A DNA stretch of 32,982 nt from a virus. Positions 6,312-17,347 of this stretch are shown one piece after another. Below the pieces are notes generated by a model, which worked only from the letters and a program-made list of their open reading frames with translations, was not told the DNA's origin and searched no databases. The first letter of the stretch is position 1. The number at the start of each line of letters is the position of its first letter. The DNA is taken from positions 1 through 32,982 of the IMG/VR virus record IMGVR_UViG_3300010158_000019; one strand, 5' to 3'. Position numbers and translations under genes: made by a program.

Positions 6312-6549
6312 TATTATTTTGATTATCGTAAACAAATTTAACTAATTCACGAATGCAAGACTGGCATCCGTAAATAGTAAAATATCTTTCAGCATCTATT
6401 GTTTTTGCTATTTTTTGAAAAGTCTTTAAATCATCATCACCAGGGTAGATGTCTATGTCTAAATCTATCCTTTCGATTAGAAACTTATTAGCTTCTAAAA
6501 ATTCGGTGTAATCAAATTTTTGTGGTTGTTGTGTATTTTTCTTTTCCAT
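6298..6549 (-). CDS. Unknown small protein, 83 aa
   Basis: MEKKNTQQPQKFDYTEFLEANKFL..., acidic in the middle (DLDIDIYPGDDD), with a CQSC pair near residues 61-64 but no second metal-binding pair. It overlaps the 3' end of the sigma-like gene by 38 nt and the start of TerS by 14 nt, so it is within the late transcript. No family recognised. Overlap on both sides and an ATG start support expression. Confidence 0.6.
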   Translation of the reverse strand: MEKKNTQQPQKFDYTEFLEANKFLIERIDLDIDIYPGDDDLKTFQKIAKTIDAERYFTIYGCQSCIRELVKFVYDNQNNNAKA

Positions 6550-6982
6550 TTATTATTTTTTTAGAAATATTATTCAAAATTGAGTTTATAGTATTATGTG
6601 AAATGTTAGTTAATTGCTCAATTCCTCTGAGTGTATGTTGTTCACGAAGTTTAAGCAATTCTGATTCGTACCATTCCAACGAATCAAAGTTAATATTTAT
6701 TTCTTCATATTCTTCGTTTTTAAGTTCTATATTTTCAATACCTATACTTTCCTTATTTTTCTTTATAAAGTCCTTAAATTCGTTTATAATGACCCTATAA
6801 GCGTATGCGTTCAACTTTCCACTATTATATAATTCCAAAAGTAGCGAATTATTTACTTGTATCAACTTTAAAAAAGCATTTTGTTTGATATCTTCCTTGC
6901 AGTATGCAGGCAAAGTATTGATGACTTTGTCAATATCATTGCAAAGATACAACTCTGTAATTATATCATTAGTGCTTTTCAC
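6512..6982 (-). CDS. Sigma-factor-like transcription regulator, 156 aa
   Basis: Residues about 28-75 (CKEDIKQNAFLKLIQ...YAYRVIINEFKDFIKKNKES) resemble sigma region 2 of ECF-type factors. The C-terminal part (LREQHTLRGIEQLTNISHNTINSILNNISKK) looks like a region-4 helix-turn-helix. A GTG at 6982 is the only reasonable start. A small sigma-like gene just upstream of TerS is a recurrent arrangement in Bacteroidota phages, where it may switch on late genes. Here it heads the long leftward late block, after an unusual repeat-rich leader. The similarity is weak; a HTH regulator of another kind is possible. Confidence 0.55.
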   Translation of the reverse strand: MKSTNDIITELYLCNDIDKVINTLPAYCKEDIKQNAFLKLIQVNNSLLLELYNSGKLNAYAYRVIINEFKDFIKKNKESIGIENIELKNEEYEEININFDSLEWYESELLKLREQHTLRGIEQLTNISHNTINSILNNISKKIINGKEKYTTTTKI

Positions 6983-7037: not shown

Positions 7038-7065
7038 CTTTCTTTCTTTCTTTCTTTCTTTCTTT
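7038..7065. repeat. Tetranucleotide microsatellite (CTTT)7
   Basis: Seven perfect CTTT units on the plus strand (AAAG on the transcribed strand), in the 118-nt non-coding stretch before the sigma-like gene. It lies outside coding sequence, so unit-number change would alter leader or promoter spacing rather than reading frame. Confidence 0.9.
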
Positions 7066-7070
7066 GCATT

Positions 7071-7100
7071 AGGGGGGTTTATGGGGGGGAGGTTTAAACC
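7071..7100. other. G-run tract and 10-bp palindrome in non-coding DNA
   Basis: Runs of six and seven G's separated by five bases are followed by the palindrome GGTTTAAACC, just beyond the HNH stop. In such an AT-rich genome this is striking. On the leftward transcript it is C-rich. Function unknown. Confidence 0.6.
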
Positions 7101-7430
7101 CTATTTTTTTAACGATGCATAATAGTGATTTAAATTTTCTTTTATTGTCATAAATTCTAAATTATCAATATGATTATTTTCTTTATTAAAATCTTTATGA
7201 TTAACAGTTAAATTGCTTTCTCCTATAAATGTTAAAGCTACTAATCTATGAACAAAATATTGTTTTATTTTACAATTCTCTGATAATCTAACACATAAAT
7301 ATCCTCTTCTATCTTTTCTTACAAAAATTATATTTTCTTTTCCACTCATTATACTCATAACTCTACCAAAATTACTTACTTTATAATTACCATTAAAACC
7401 TTTGATTTGTTTCCAAACTTCTATTTGCAT
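7101..7430 (-). CDS. NUMOD4-HNH homing-type endonuclease, 109 aa
   Basis: The N-terminus EVWKQIKGFNGNYKVSNFGRVMS (about residues 4-26) is a NUMOD4 DNA-binding motif. The C-terminal half contains VHRLVALTFIG...TVNHKDFNKENNHIDNLEF, an HNH_3 nuclease motif with the catalytic-type histidine in NHKD. These are free-standing selfish endonucleases common in phages. The start lies 11 nt after a terminator-like hairpin (see 7435-7520), an unusual leader. No intron boundaries are evident in neighbouring genes, so it appears inserted between operons. Confidence 0.88.
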   Translation of the reverse strand: MQIEVWKQIKGFNGNYKVSNFGRVMSIMSGKENIIFVRKDRRGYLCVRLSENCKIKQYFVHRLVALTFIGESNLTVNHKDFNKENNHIDNLEFMTIKENLNHYYASLKK

Positions 7431-7434
7431 AAAT

Positions 7435-7520
7435 AAAAAAAGCCTTTAAAAATTAAAAAGTATTCGCACTACTTTAAAATAATTAAAGGCAATAAGTTTA
7501 AATTTGTTGGTGCGAACAAC
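7435..7520 (-). ncRNA. Kissing-loop RNA/terminator element B
   Basis: Leftward, between the primase-helicase stop and the HNH start. Hairpin 1 (7506-7520) has a GTTG/CAAC stem and a 7-nt loop. Hairpin 2 (7442-7490, 49 nt) has 21-nt arms with two 2x2 internal loops and a 7-nt loop (plus strand TTCGCAC, 7463-7469). That loop is the exact reverse complement of the hairpin-1 loop (GTGCGAA, 7510-7516). Hairpin 2 is followed by seven U's (7435-7441) and four bases later by the HNH AUG. The sequence fits an intrinsic terminator whose loop can pair with an upstream loop. Regulatory function is inferred. Confidence 0.65.
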
Positions 7521-7543
7521 GAAGCAAATATAAGTATTTTTTA

Positions 7544-9304
7544 TTAAATAATAGGTAAATATTGTCTAGTGTCAGCATTAAAGGTATAAGAACAGAAATC
7601 AACTTTGCCCAACCAGCTAAACCTAACTTTTTGCACATAAATATCAACTATGCCTGTGTCAAAATTCCTGTAAACACATATACCATTATCTGTTTTATTA
7701 AACCAGTGAGCCGATCCTGATATGCTGTAAAGGTTTGGAATTTCAAACTTACCCTTTTCATCTTTTCTCATTTTAGTAGGATGTGCAACGATGAAAATAT
7801 GAATTTGATGTTGGAGTGCAAATGTTTTAATTTTTGTTAAACTTTCACTTATGTATTGTGTTTCTGTATATCCTGCTGGTATTTTATGCTCGATATAGTT
7901 CCAAGGATCAATGAGCAGTCCGTTAATTCCTTTTCTTTTAATTAGTTCAAGTGCCTTTTCAAGTATGCCATCAAGTGTGACATCAAGTGCATTGATATTC
8001 ATAAAATAAAAGAAGTCATTGATAACTTGCTTTGATTGTTCAAACTCCCATTGGCTTATTCTATTGTCTAAATTTTGTCTAAATGCAAAAGATTTGCCTA
8101 CTATTTTCTCCATTAATTTAGTAACGTGAAAGGTTGCTGGTGAATTTTCAAAAGAACATATTGCCCACTTCCATCCGCTTGATATTACAGACTTAGCCAT
8201 TATGTTATCAACCCATTCTGATTTACCCCCATTAGGTATGCCAGTAACTGTTGTAAATTGCCCACCAGTAAATTGAAGTAGATTATCAAAAGAACCTAAA
8301 CCAAATCTTTCGCCTTTAGGGTAACCATTTGAATAATAATCATTCAAATCGTGTTCCATATCTTCCATTGTGTGAACTCCATCAATAGGGAACTCTTTAG
8401 CATTATGAGTAAGTAACTTTAAATGCTCTTTGCCATATTTACAAAGTATTTCGTTTGCATCTTTGCAATCTTCAGGGAACTCTAACTTATAGCAACGTTC
8501 TTTACCAAATCTTCTAATTAATTCATCACTTAGTCTTTTTCCTGCTGGATCGTTGTCTGTTGCAATTATTATTTTTGTTTTGTTGGCAAAATAATCAAAG
8601 CAATTATCTAAGTATTTAAGATTTACTTTACCATTAACATTTGCACCATTTGGCACACTAACACAATTATATACTCCAGCTTCATACATTGATAAACAAT
8701 CTATTTCACCCTCAACTATTACACATTGTTTGTCATCTTTTATGGCATCTAAATTGTAGAATATAAGTTCAGCATCCTTTGCCAGCTTCATATCTTTATT
8801 TGCACCACGAAATTTGATATTAACAAGGTCCTGGTCTTTGTAATAATTAAAACAAATAACTGGAATATCTGTTTTAGCTTTTGGCATCCATTCAATGCTT
8901 TCTGTTATTCCAAATCTTAATAAAGTATTATTTGAAATTTTACGATTGATTTCAAAGTGCTGTAAAAACTTATCATTCAATTTTGTTAAACGTTCAACTG
9001 GTTTAATGTAATTAGTTGTATCTTCTTTAAGTTCAAAGTTTATAGATGCAGCAACTTTCTTTACAGCTTCAAAAAAAGTAGTGTTTTCGGATTCCATAAC
9101 AAAAGAAAAAACATCGCCACTTTTGCCACATCCAAAACACTTATACATATCGCCTTTAACTTTGAATGATGGCGATTTTTCATTATGAAATGGGCAAAGT
9201 CCTGAATGATTAGCACCGTATTTTTTTAGTTTAATTTTACTGCTAACGATGTCAAGTAATGATGCAGATTGTTTAAGTTCTTGTATTGATTCAAAATTAA
9301 TCAT
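7544..9304 (-). CDS. Primase-helicase fusion (CHC2 zinc finger, Toprim, RecA-like helicase)
   Basis: 586 aa, T7 gp4-like layout. A zinc-binding primase N-terminus has C37, H40, C56 and C59 (CPFH...CFGC). A Toprim domain follows (VIVEGE, residues 196-200; IATDNDPAGK, 248-256). The C-terminal helicase has Walker A GIPNGGKS (355-362), a Walker B-like LLIDPWNY and a downstream VAHPTKM...SGSAHWFNKTDN motif typical of DnaB-family enzymes. It should prime and unwind DNA at the phage fork. It overlaps the replisome-organizer-like gene (ATGA). No phage DNA polymerase is visible, so the host polymerase is probably recruited. Confidence 0.95.
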   Translation of the reverse strand: MINFESIQELKQSASLLDIVSSKIKLKKYGANHSGLCPFHNEKSPSFKVKGDMYKCFGCGKSGDVFSFVMESENTTFFEAVKKVAASINFELKEDTTNYIKPVERLTKLNDKFLQHFEINRKISNNTLLRFGITESIEWMPKAKTDIPVICFNYYKDQDLVNIKFRGANKDMKLAKDAELIFYNLDAIKDDKQCVIVEGEIDCLSMYEAGVYNCVSVPNGANVNGKVNLKYLDNCFDYFANKTKIIIATDNDPAGKRLSDELIRRFGKERCYKLEFPEDCKDANEILCKYGKEHLKLLTHNAKEFPIDGVHTMEDMEHDLNDYYSNGYPKGERFGLGSFDNLLQFTGGQFTTVTGIPNGGKSEWVDNIMAKSVISSGWKWAICSFENSPATFHVTKLMEKIVGKSFAFRQNLDNRISQWEFEQSKQVINDFFYFMNINALDVTLDGILEKALELIKRKGINGLLIDPWNYIEHKIPAGYTETQYISESLTKIKTFALQHQIHIFIVAHPTKMRKDEKGKFEIPNLYSISGSAHWFNKTDNGICVYRNFDTGIVDIYVQKVRFSWLGKVDFCSYTFNADTRQYLPII

Positions 9305-9672
9305 AGCACCATATTTTTAGAGTTATCAATATTTTTTGCCCATCTTTTTGCCGCCCCCTCTTTGCCTTTATTTTGTAGCGTTTGCCTGAGTTCAATAGTT
9401 TGCAAAAGTCTTTGAGAAAAGAATTTATTCTCTTCCATTGTAAACAATTCAAAAGATTGAATAACTGCTTTTACTTTAGTTTCTGTTGACTGCATCTGCA
9501 TAGCTAAAACTGGTATTATCTTCATAGGCAACCTGCCACCAGCAACTGCCAAACGTTCAACTATAAACCAGTAAATTCCATATCCTTCCATTCCTAACTC
9601 TTGCCTTAAGTATAATATCTTAACATCTTCAGAAGCCGTATAATCGTGTGAGAAATAATATGATTTGTTCAT
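9301..9672 (-). CDS. Replisome-organizer-like protein (DUF4373 / Lin1244-type N-terminal domain)
   Basis: 123 aa from the ATG at 9672 (MNKSYYFSHDYTASEDVKILYLRQELGMEGYGIYWFIVERLA). The segment from HDYTAS to VERLA matches the N-terminal domain of DnaD-like replisome organizers. Only that domain is present; the protein stops soon after a GKEGAAKRW basic patch, without a DnaD C-terminal domain. It overlaps the primase-helicase start (ATGA), giving a two-gene replication unit. The 9672 start is preferred because an upstream extension would run through the terminator-like hairpin of element A. Confidence 0.8.
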   Translation of the reverse strand: MNKSYYFSHDYTASEDVKILYLRQELGMEGYGIYWFIVERLAVAGGRLPMKIIPVLAMQMQSTETKVKAVIQSFELFTMEENKFFSQRLLQTIELRQTLQNKGKEGAAKRWAKNIDNSKNMVL

Positions 9673-9678
9673 AAAAAT

Positions 9679-9767
9679 AAAAAAGGCTCTCAGACTTAGG
9701 TGCTGTGGTAGTCGCTGCCTAAATCTTCGAGCCAAAAAGTTTAATTAATAATGCTACCACACATTAT
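9679..9767 (-). ncRNA. Kissing-loop RNA/terminator element A
   Basis: Leftward, between the GIY-YIG stop and the replisome-organizer start. Hairpin 1 (9748-9767) has a 6-bp ATAATG/CATTAT stem and an 8-nt loop CTACCACA (9754-9761). Hairpin 2 (9685-9733, 49 nt) has arms pairing as 5 bp, a 2x2 loop, 3 bp, one mismatch and 5 bp. Its loop contains TGTGGTAG (9704-9711), the exact reverse complement of the hairpin-1 loop. Six U's (9679-9684) and then A/U-rich bases lead to the AUG at 9672. Same geometry as element B with unrelated sequence. Function inferred. Confidence 0.65.
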
Positions 9768-9782
9768 AATATTGTTGCGAAG

Positions 9783-10142
9783 TTATTTGAAATAATCTAA
9801 ATGAAAACTATTTAATGATGGTTTAAATTTTTTTATCATATTTTTTTCACAATTTAATATTTCTTCAATAGAATAATTAACCATACAAAACCAAATACAA
9901 TAATCAAATACCATATCAGGATCTCTAAGATGTCCTAATAATCTTGTCTTAATATTTTTACTCATACCTATATAAACAAGACAATCTTTATAAAATAAAT
10001 GATATATCCCTTTTTTAGTTGGTATTATATTTTTTCCATAATAAGAAATTAATTGATTTAAATTAAATGGAGTTCCAATTAATTCATTTTTATAAAAAAA
10101 TTTTATTGTATCAATATTTTTTAATAATTCAGAACCTATCAT
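9783..10142 (-). CDS. GIY-YIG endonuclease, 119 aa
   Basis: From the ATG at 10142 (MIGSELLKNIDTIKFF). GIY at residues 45-47 (KKGIYHLFY), YIG at 57-59 (LVYIGMS), an arginine at 67 and a Glu in NCEKNMIKKFKPSLN fit a compact GIY-YIG nuclease core. It is probably a free-standing homing-type endonuclease. An upstream start at 10202 would overlap the methyltransferase by 53 nt and is less likely. It is AT-rich with long A/T runs and lies between the methyltransferase and replication genes, consistent with insertion. Confidence 0.85.
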   Translation of the reverse strand: MIGSELLKNIDTIKFFYKNELIGTPFNLNQLISYYGKNIIPTKKGIYHLFYKDCLVYIGMSKNIKTRLLGHLRDPDMVFDYCIWFCMVNYSIEEILNCEKNMIKKFKPSLNSFHLDYFK

Positions 10143-17107: not shown

Positions 17108-17266
17108 ATGGCAAAACAAACACCAATAAAGCCTAAGAAAGAACGCACGTCAAAGTATGAAGAGAAAGTAACGTTTAATGGTTCTTTTCAAGAAATGGTA
17201 AACATTTCATTGACTGGTGCAGGGGCTAAGAAAAAAGAGGTAAAGATTGTAAAACCTACCAAATAA
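17108..17266 (+). CDS. Small basic protein, 52 aa
   Basis: From the ATG at 17108: MAKQTPIKPKKERTSKYEEKVTFNGSFQEMVNISLTGAGAKKKEVKIVKPTK. It is Lys-rich, with a compact centre 'YEEKVTFNGSFQEMVNIS' that resembles small Bacteroidota host proteins I recall but cannot name. It lies 7 nt after the PIN gene and just before the cassette terminator, so it is the third gene of that unit. Confidence 0.65.
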   Translation: MAKQTPIKPKKERTSKYEEKVTFNGSFQEMVNISLTGAGAKKKEVKIVKPTK

Positions 17267-17269
17267 AAA

Positions 17270-17304
17270 AGCCTCATTGATTTGAGGCTGAAAAGTTTTT
17301 TTTT
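17270..17304 (+). terminator. Intrinsic terminator after the PIN cassette
   Basis: AGCCTCA (17270-17276) pairs with TGAGGCT (17283-17289) around a 6-nt loop. Nine T's follow at 17296-17304, after a 6-nt spacer. Rightward. With the promoter-like box at 15801 it makes the PIN cassette look self-contained. Confidence 0.75.
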
Positions 17305-17347
17305 GTTTAGTCCCAACACATATATAGTTACCTAAAAGAAATTAACA

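Follow-up and report, generated by a model that had tools for sequence, protein, structure and literature searches.

Two RNA elements encoded on the minus strand of virus record IMGVR_UViG_3300010158_000019 (positions 1 to 32,982; this whole stretch of 32,982 nt is called the window, and coordinates are window positions) are, with near certainty, cis-regulatory RNA leaders. Each consists of a promoter box and two hairpins whose loops can pair with each other, the second hairpin running into a U-tract and then an AUG. The same architecture is found in dozens of uncultured phages from a metagenomic collection of viral contigs, and since the letters of the loops vary from phage to phage while their match is kept, the comparison clearly speaks for selection on the loop-loop pairing, whose purpose is probably to meter or to lock replication. 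The reading I favor, to which I would give a probability of about one half, is that the element is a cis-acting transcription attenuator that doses expression of the replication initiator. As judged from Rfam 15 and the open-access literature, this RNA element is undescribed.

Anatomy and Genomic Context of the Two Elements

The elements are named E1 and E2 here (A and B in the original prediction). E1 (9673-9785, minus strand) begins with a promoter -7 box, TAACTTCG, at 9778-9785, identified by comparison with the consensus TAnnTTTG (PMC6847099). Hairpin 1 follows at 9744-9770, with its loop UGUGGUAG at 9754-9761, then a terminator-like hairpin 2 of 49 nt at 9685-9733, with its loop CUACCACA at 9704-9711, and finally, at 9673-9684, a 12-nt spacer to the AUG that includes a tract of 6 U. 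The corresponding parts of E2 (7428-7532, minus strand) are a -7 box, TATATTTG, at 7525-7532, hairpin 1 at 7506-7520 with the loop UUCGCAC at 7510-7516, a terminator-like hairpin 2, again of 49 nt, at 7442-7490 with the loop GUGCGAA at 7463-7469, and an 11-nt spacer with 7 U at 7431-7441. The hairpins were assigned from the fold together with the coordinates, and the boxes and U-tracts were read from the sequence itself. Within each element the two loops are complementary over their full length, and the loops of E1 do not match those of E2. The geometry given in the original prediction (two second hairpins of 49 nt, U-tracts of 6 and 7 nt, AUG at 12 and 11 nt, complementary loops) was recovered in full when the sequence was reread.

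Folding z-scores relative to shuffled sequences are -4.3 for E1 and -3.0 for E2. A scan of the window with fixed criteria returned two matches, E1 and E2; 150 dinucleotide shuffles returned 5 when no AUG was required and none when an AUG had to lie within 22 nt. Chance as the origin of the architecture is ruled out by these shuffles and by the further relatives described below. A kink-turn in hairpin 2, brought to mind by UGAA/GGA internal loops in some relatives, was also considered and is not needed in E1 or E2.

The surrounding genes, all on the minus strand, come in the order that had been predicted: a GIY-YIG-like ORF (9783-10142, with a Pfam score slightly under the cut-off), E1, a replisome organizer or replication initiator with a Lin1244_N domain, formerly DUF4373 (9301-9672; Pfam PF14297, E=1e-9), a primase-helicase with the Pfam domains Zn_ribbon_DnaG, Toprim, and DnaB_C (7544-9304), E2, and, led by E2, a NUMOD4-HNH (HNH_3) homing-type endonuclease (7101-7430; Pfam PF07463 and PF13392).

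Relatives in Other Phages

A search of viral contigs with the organizer protein found at least 80 loci, about 30 of which have the same architecture ahead of the gene. A script called elements at 31 of these protein-anchored loci, 4 of them false on reading, and missed 3 that are genuine; it classed 43 loci as lying directly behind another gene. This count suggests that the element is present where the gene has its own promoter.

An independent search used a DNA pattern composed only of the linker, the U-run, and the AUG, and was therefore blind to loop pairing. Among the matches listed, 33 of the 37 hits with a terminator stem have loop-loop complementarity of 7-8 nt, and the remaining 4 look like coding coincidences. 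When loop partners were swapped within this set, complementarity of at least 7 nt appeared in about 15% of the cases, largely because relatives share loop types. In the pooled set, again among the matches listed, loop complementarity was found in 88 of 93, the 5 exceptions being short coding coincidences with ORFs of at most 11 aa.

The sampled records mostly have a single element, ahead of a replication initiator. One contig, L242, has two, at its positions 2426 and 7532, with differing loops: GUAGGAU ahead of a primosomal-like gene and GUGAGAU ahead of an HNH gene adjoining a portal-like gene. In that contig the HNH cassette with its element lies between the terminase and portal genes (these two genes were identified by eye). 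The idea that each element has a private loop pair is borne out in the window as well as in L242, the two genomes that have a second element.

The genes that follow the elements belong to several PHROG replication families without obvious homology to each other, annotated as replication initiation protein, DnaA-like replisome organizer, DnaD-like helicase loader, and HTH_36 proteins. In a minority of elements, the gene that follows is GIY-YIG, HNH, or methylase-like, and where it is GIY-YIG or methylase-like, a presumed replication gene comes next. In L101, L144, and L190, unrelated initiator genes stand behind leaders that are of one type or that differ chiefly in their loops, which indicates that initiator genes have been swapped behind a shared leader. 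L101 and L144 have the same DnaB-like gene after the initiator.

Phages and plasmids in GenBank contain no element-like DNA, chance matches of 25-32 nt aside, and no element was found in the three named relative phages that were scanned. A covariance model (R1, described below) found the element in none of 395 Bacteroidota genomes, a weak negative in that 10 candidates per genome were scored and the filters were strict. The type of promoter, together with the named phages that come nearest (Flavobacterium, Cellulophaga, Tenacibaculum), makes a host from the Bacteroidota probable.

Covariation of Stems and Loops

Covariation was assessed in a MAFFT alignment of 21 relatives, which excludes the window and is dominated by one sequence type. 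All five helices covary, the kissing helix included. Paired cells amount to 97.1%, as compared to 75.7% in shuffles, double changes occur at 19 of the 23 pairs, and the covariation score is 0.614, as compared to 0.210 in shuffles and to at most 0.14 when the partners are slid by 1-3 columns. In the kissing helix, 5 of the 7 pairs have undergone compensatory changes. There are also near-identical elements whose main difference is a coordinated change in both loops, for instance GUCGUAU/AUACGAC versus GUCGUUU/AAACGAC, or GUCGGAU versus GUUGCAG within the same frame. RNAalifold proposes the same two hairpins. The stems contain 17 G-U pairs and no A-C pairs, pointing to the mRNA strand as the functional one.

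The model R1 was built from this alignment, with no pseudoknot and no window sequence. Its best two matches in the window are E1 (9670-9769, E=5.9e-6) and E2 (7428-7527, E=2.8e-5). The original prediction had staked itself on a covariance search turning up more examples with co-varying loops, and dozens came to light, in which the kissing helix covaries. Its proposal of an undescribed RNA family stands on these relatives, on that helix, and on the absence of any Rfam match.

Promoter and Start Context

A box of the form TAnnTT[T/C]G ends 0-12 nt ahead of hairpin 1 in 91% of 86 elements, as compared to 1.6% expected at random positions, and the commonest gaps between box and hairpin are 4 and 5 nt (58 of the 86). 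The Flavobacterium promoter has the consensus TAnnTTTG, with the G of the box at -5 (PMC6847099), and so, with a gap of 4-5 nt, transcription is predicted to start on one of the first two bases of hairpin 1. The box of E2 matches the consensus exactly, and its hairpin 1 begins 4 nt on, at the predicted +1; the box of E1 has one mismatch and a longer gap to hairpin 1. Since the element sits nearly always directly on a Bacteroidota promoter, hairpin 1 would form the 5' end of the RNA.

Such a position might suit an mRNA stabilizer, in which a hairpin at the 5' terminus, held by a second one, guards against decay that depends on the 5' end. Hairpin 1 does begin at the predicted +1 or +2 in 58 of the 86 elements, but the U-tract, the tight distance to the AUG, and the diversification of the loops are all left unexplained, and I consider a stabilizer very unlikely. 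With its pair of hairpins at the very 5' terminus of a phage transcript, the element also recalls the put RNA of phage HK022, a leader that modifies RNA polymerase and brings about antitermination in cis. The HK022 put hairpins are recognized by their sequence, whereas here the loops and stems change freely, the loops pair with each other, and a U-tract comes next, making a leader of that kind highly improbable.

Other dimensions are constrained across the elements. The complementarity between loop 1 and loop 2 extends over 6-9 nt, usually 7, the linkers between the hairpins are mostly 11-16 nt, with AACUUAUUG recurring, 47 or 49 nt is the usual length of hairpin 2, and the AUG lies 8-12 nt after it. 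The ten bases that precede the AUG are rich in U; in the other genes of these phages, the corresponding stretch is rich in A (60-70% A at -11/-10).

Proposed Attenuation of Transcription

Hairpin 2 has the form of an intrinsic terminator, a stable hairpin followed directly by a U-tract. Its mean energy is -18.8 kcal/mol, and on average 7.9 of the 9 bases after it are U in a set where the U-run was part of the selection; a U-run is present also in the protein-anchored loci, which were selected without it. The terminator reading is further backed by the U-tract TTTTTTATTT of an ordinary bidirectional terminator between plus-strand genes at 17257-17325, which is similar to the tracts after hairpin 2. 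That site was itself matched by R1 (E=0.002) and was rejected as a third element, being a plain terminator without loop pairing. A simple scan for consensus terminators found none at the elements, because the stem has internal loops.

The favored mechanism would work as follows. The promoter-plus-leader cassette would give rise to a 5' RNA that is structured, about 80 nt long, and active in cis on the initiator genes. Hairpin 2 would terminate or pause most transcripts at the U-tract, leaving only a fraction to read into the initiator gene. The pairing of the loops may set the frequency of termination, in that the emerging hairpin 2 is clamped or delayed, and in the mRNA that is read through, it may cover the start region as well. 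Initiator synthesis would then be low, dosed, or delayed. Any other RNA in the cell with matching loops would be expected to compete, creating selection for private, divergent pairs, much as with the incompatibility determinants of plasmids. E2 is the same cassette, carried by the HNH nuclease gene. The analysis found no signal or factor that regulates the element.

Two observations qualify this scheme. In some relatives (L043, L048, L064, L071), other bases break up the U-tract, weakening a reading of pure termination, and the spacing to the AUG is tighter than a terminator needs, a hint of a translational role. The main rival of attenuation concerns translation: the kissed structure, which ends 11-12 nt before the AUG, would be a lock or an activator that controls access of the 30S subunit. 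The distance from hairpin 2 to the AUG, always 8-12 nt, fits this proposal, and initiation in Flavobacterium is known to be tuned by structure between -20 and +20 (PMC6847099). There is precedent in the repZ pseudoknot of IncI-type plasmids and in the RNA structures that regulate I-TevI and segB of T4 and mobE of Aeh1 (PMC2988022), and the genes controlled here include homing nucleases. Against this proposal, neither the start codon nor the U-rich spacer is itself paired, and intrinsic terminators are typified by just this combination, a stable hairpin with a conserved U-tract behind it. I regard translational control as a real possibility, though a less than likely one.

Replacement of Leaders and Insertion of a Nuclease Gene

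The organizer gene of the window has 86-95% DNA identity with those of close relatives (blastn). In comparisons with L005, L008, L083, L086, and L087, the homology ends 11-12 nt before the AUG, at the border between hairpin 2 and the U-tract. Beyond that border, the leaders have global identities of 0.50-0.60, near or slightly above the 0.46-0.51 of shuffled sequences, and each has its own matched loops. On these alignments, the leader is evidently replaced between near-identical phages, with the gene and the architecture persisting. The loops differ in 42 of the 161 pairs whose coding sequences are at least 85% identical, counts that include a few entries with a misassigned loop. In the pair L042/L044, the coding sequences are 97% identical and the leaders 59%; the loop of L044 was misassigned in the list, and its true loop, GUCGCAU, still differs. 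Since both loops are on one transcript, divergence requires either paired mutations or exchange of the whole leader, and both are seen.

A leader that diversifies faster than its gene, as in those 42 pairs, would be expected if the terminated leader were a stable small RNA that interferes in trans with leaders of the same loop type, controlling copy number or superinfection in the manner of plasmid incompatibility or of immunity by the P4 CI RNA. The loops also differ when one genome has two elements, the controlled genes are replication initiators, and in IncK plasmids one change in a loop is enough to switch compatibility (PMC10724649). But both loops here lie on one RNA, so that intramolecular pairing should win. 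Outside the element, moreover, the loci show no excess of loop k-mers (44 observed, 65 expected), which implies that there is no separate partner RNA, and an antisense or target RNA elsewhere in the same phage was rejected for this lack of surplus loop words. Lysogenic immunity is not evident either, given that none of the 24 window proteins scanned, from a record that is possibly incomplete, matched an integrase or repressor. Control in trans is thus quite unlikely. The pattern of divergence nonetheless resembles, by analogy, plasmid replication control, in which loop bases set compatibility (PMC10724649). It is conceivable, if unlikely, that this is the first phage-borne self-kissing incompatibility code, in which the initiator is gated by self-matching loops and coinfecting phages of the same loop type interfere through exchange of leader RNA; the loops would then diversify by compensatory change and module exchange.

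E2 has a different history. A segment of 0.47 kb (7072-7542, minus strand, breakpoints from blastn) comprising the promoter, E2, and the HNH gene is present in the window and in L082 and absent from L083, L084, L005, L087, and L088. By this comparison, the segment is a compact homing cassette equipped with a leader RNA of its own. The original prediction saw two elements bracketing the replication operon by design, a view that finds no support here, since E2, absent with its HNH gene from close relatives, is the leader of the inserted gene and most sampled records have one element. The alternative that it raised, spread together with a homing nuclease, describes E2 well. The GIY-YIG-like gene accompanies the same E1 in L084 and is absent from L083, whose leader differs; from this distribution, the E1 leader was possibly co-converted together with the nuclease. 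Just downstream of the HNH gene, at 7040-7064, is a tract of the tetranucleotide repeat CTTT.

The association with nucleases raises the question of whether the inverted repeats might have no regulatory role and be left behind by inserting homing nucleases or by template switching at quasi-palindromes, the latter being able to restore complementarity. E2 did arrive with an HNH gene and a GIY-YIG gene adjoins E1, but most elements have no adjoining nuclease (in a motif scan too strict to serve as a census), covariation is seen in the four stem helices, too, independently of the loops, and the promoter and AUG stand in fixed register. An origin of this sort, with no regulatory role, is scarcely credible.

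Comparison with Known Systems

The kissing complex of RNAI and RNAII in ColE1 has 7-nt loops that pair fully. That complex is intermolecular, formed between sense and antisense RNA, and concerns a primer RNA, whereas the element described here is an mRNA leader. The c4 antisense RNA (Rfam RF01695) is a phage RNA whose hairpin loops pair with a target; it acts in trans, and the elements here have no Rfam match. At the gathering threshold, Rfam 15 has no match in the window, and when E values up to 5 were admitted for the window and the loci of four relatives, two chance-level matches appeared, neither on an element. No published description of the element was found in the open-access literature.

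Another close counterpart is the leader pseudoknot of repZ/repA in IncI, IncB, and IncL-M plasmids, likewise a leader RNA of a replication initiator gene with loop pairing. In those leaders, a few loop bases set specificity and are diversified between compatible replicons (PMC10724649). There, an antisense RNA (RNAI) from the opposite strand kisses stem-loop I, whereas in the present element a single transcript contains both partners, which have to mutate together, and there is in addition a terminator-like hairpin and U-tract at the AUG. In the satellite phage P4, replication genes are repressed by premature termination through pairing of leader RNA (PMC4825925), but the P4 CI RNA is a processed RNA that acts in trans through complementary segments, seqA and seqC, without a small kissing interaction of 7 bp between two hairpins at the promoter. 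The homing endonuclease genes of T4 and Aeh1 (I-TevI, segB, mobE, seg43) are controlled by RNA hairpins, that of seg43(25) lying immediately upstream of the start region (PMC2988022). These are single hairpins that mostly sequester the SD, without loop-loop pairing and without a family shared across replication genes.

What distinguishes the present case is a structured RNA family, with strong evidence from covariation, at the DNA replication switch of a large and mostly uncultured group of phages. Nature has in effect supplied a library of kissing-loop pairs, matched and apparently orthogonal, in which the geometry stays fixed, so that one can test directly whether pairing controls expression and whether loops that do not match leave each other alone. 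Should orthogonality hold, the pairs could be taken over as they are as regulatory parts for use in Bacteroidota, and coinfecting phages might compete with each other on this basis at the level of the replicon.

One further feature of the window concerns transcription. An ORF at 6512-6982, just ahead of the terminase genes, has a weak match to a phage RNA polymerase sigma factor (phrog_1740, E 1.8e-4) and, on the strength of that match, might encode a late-transcription switch.
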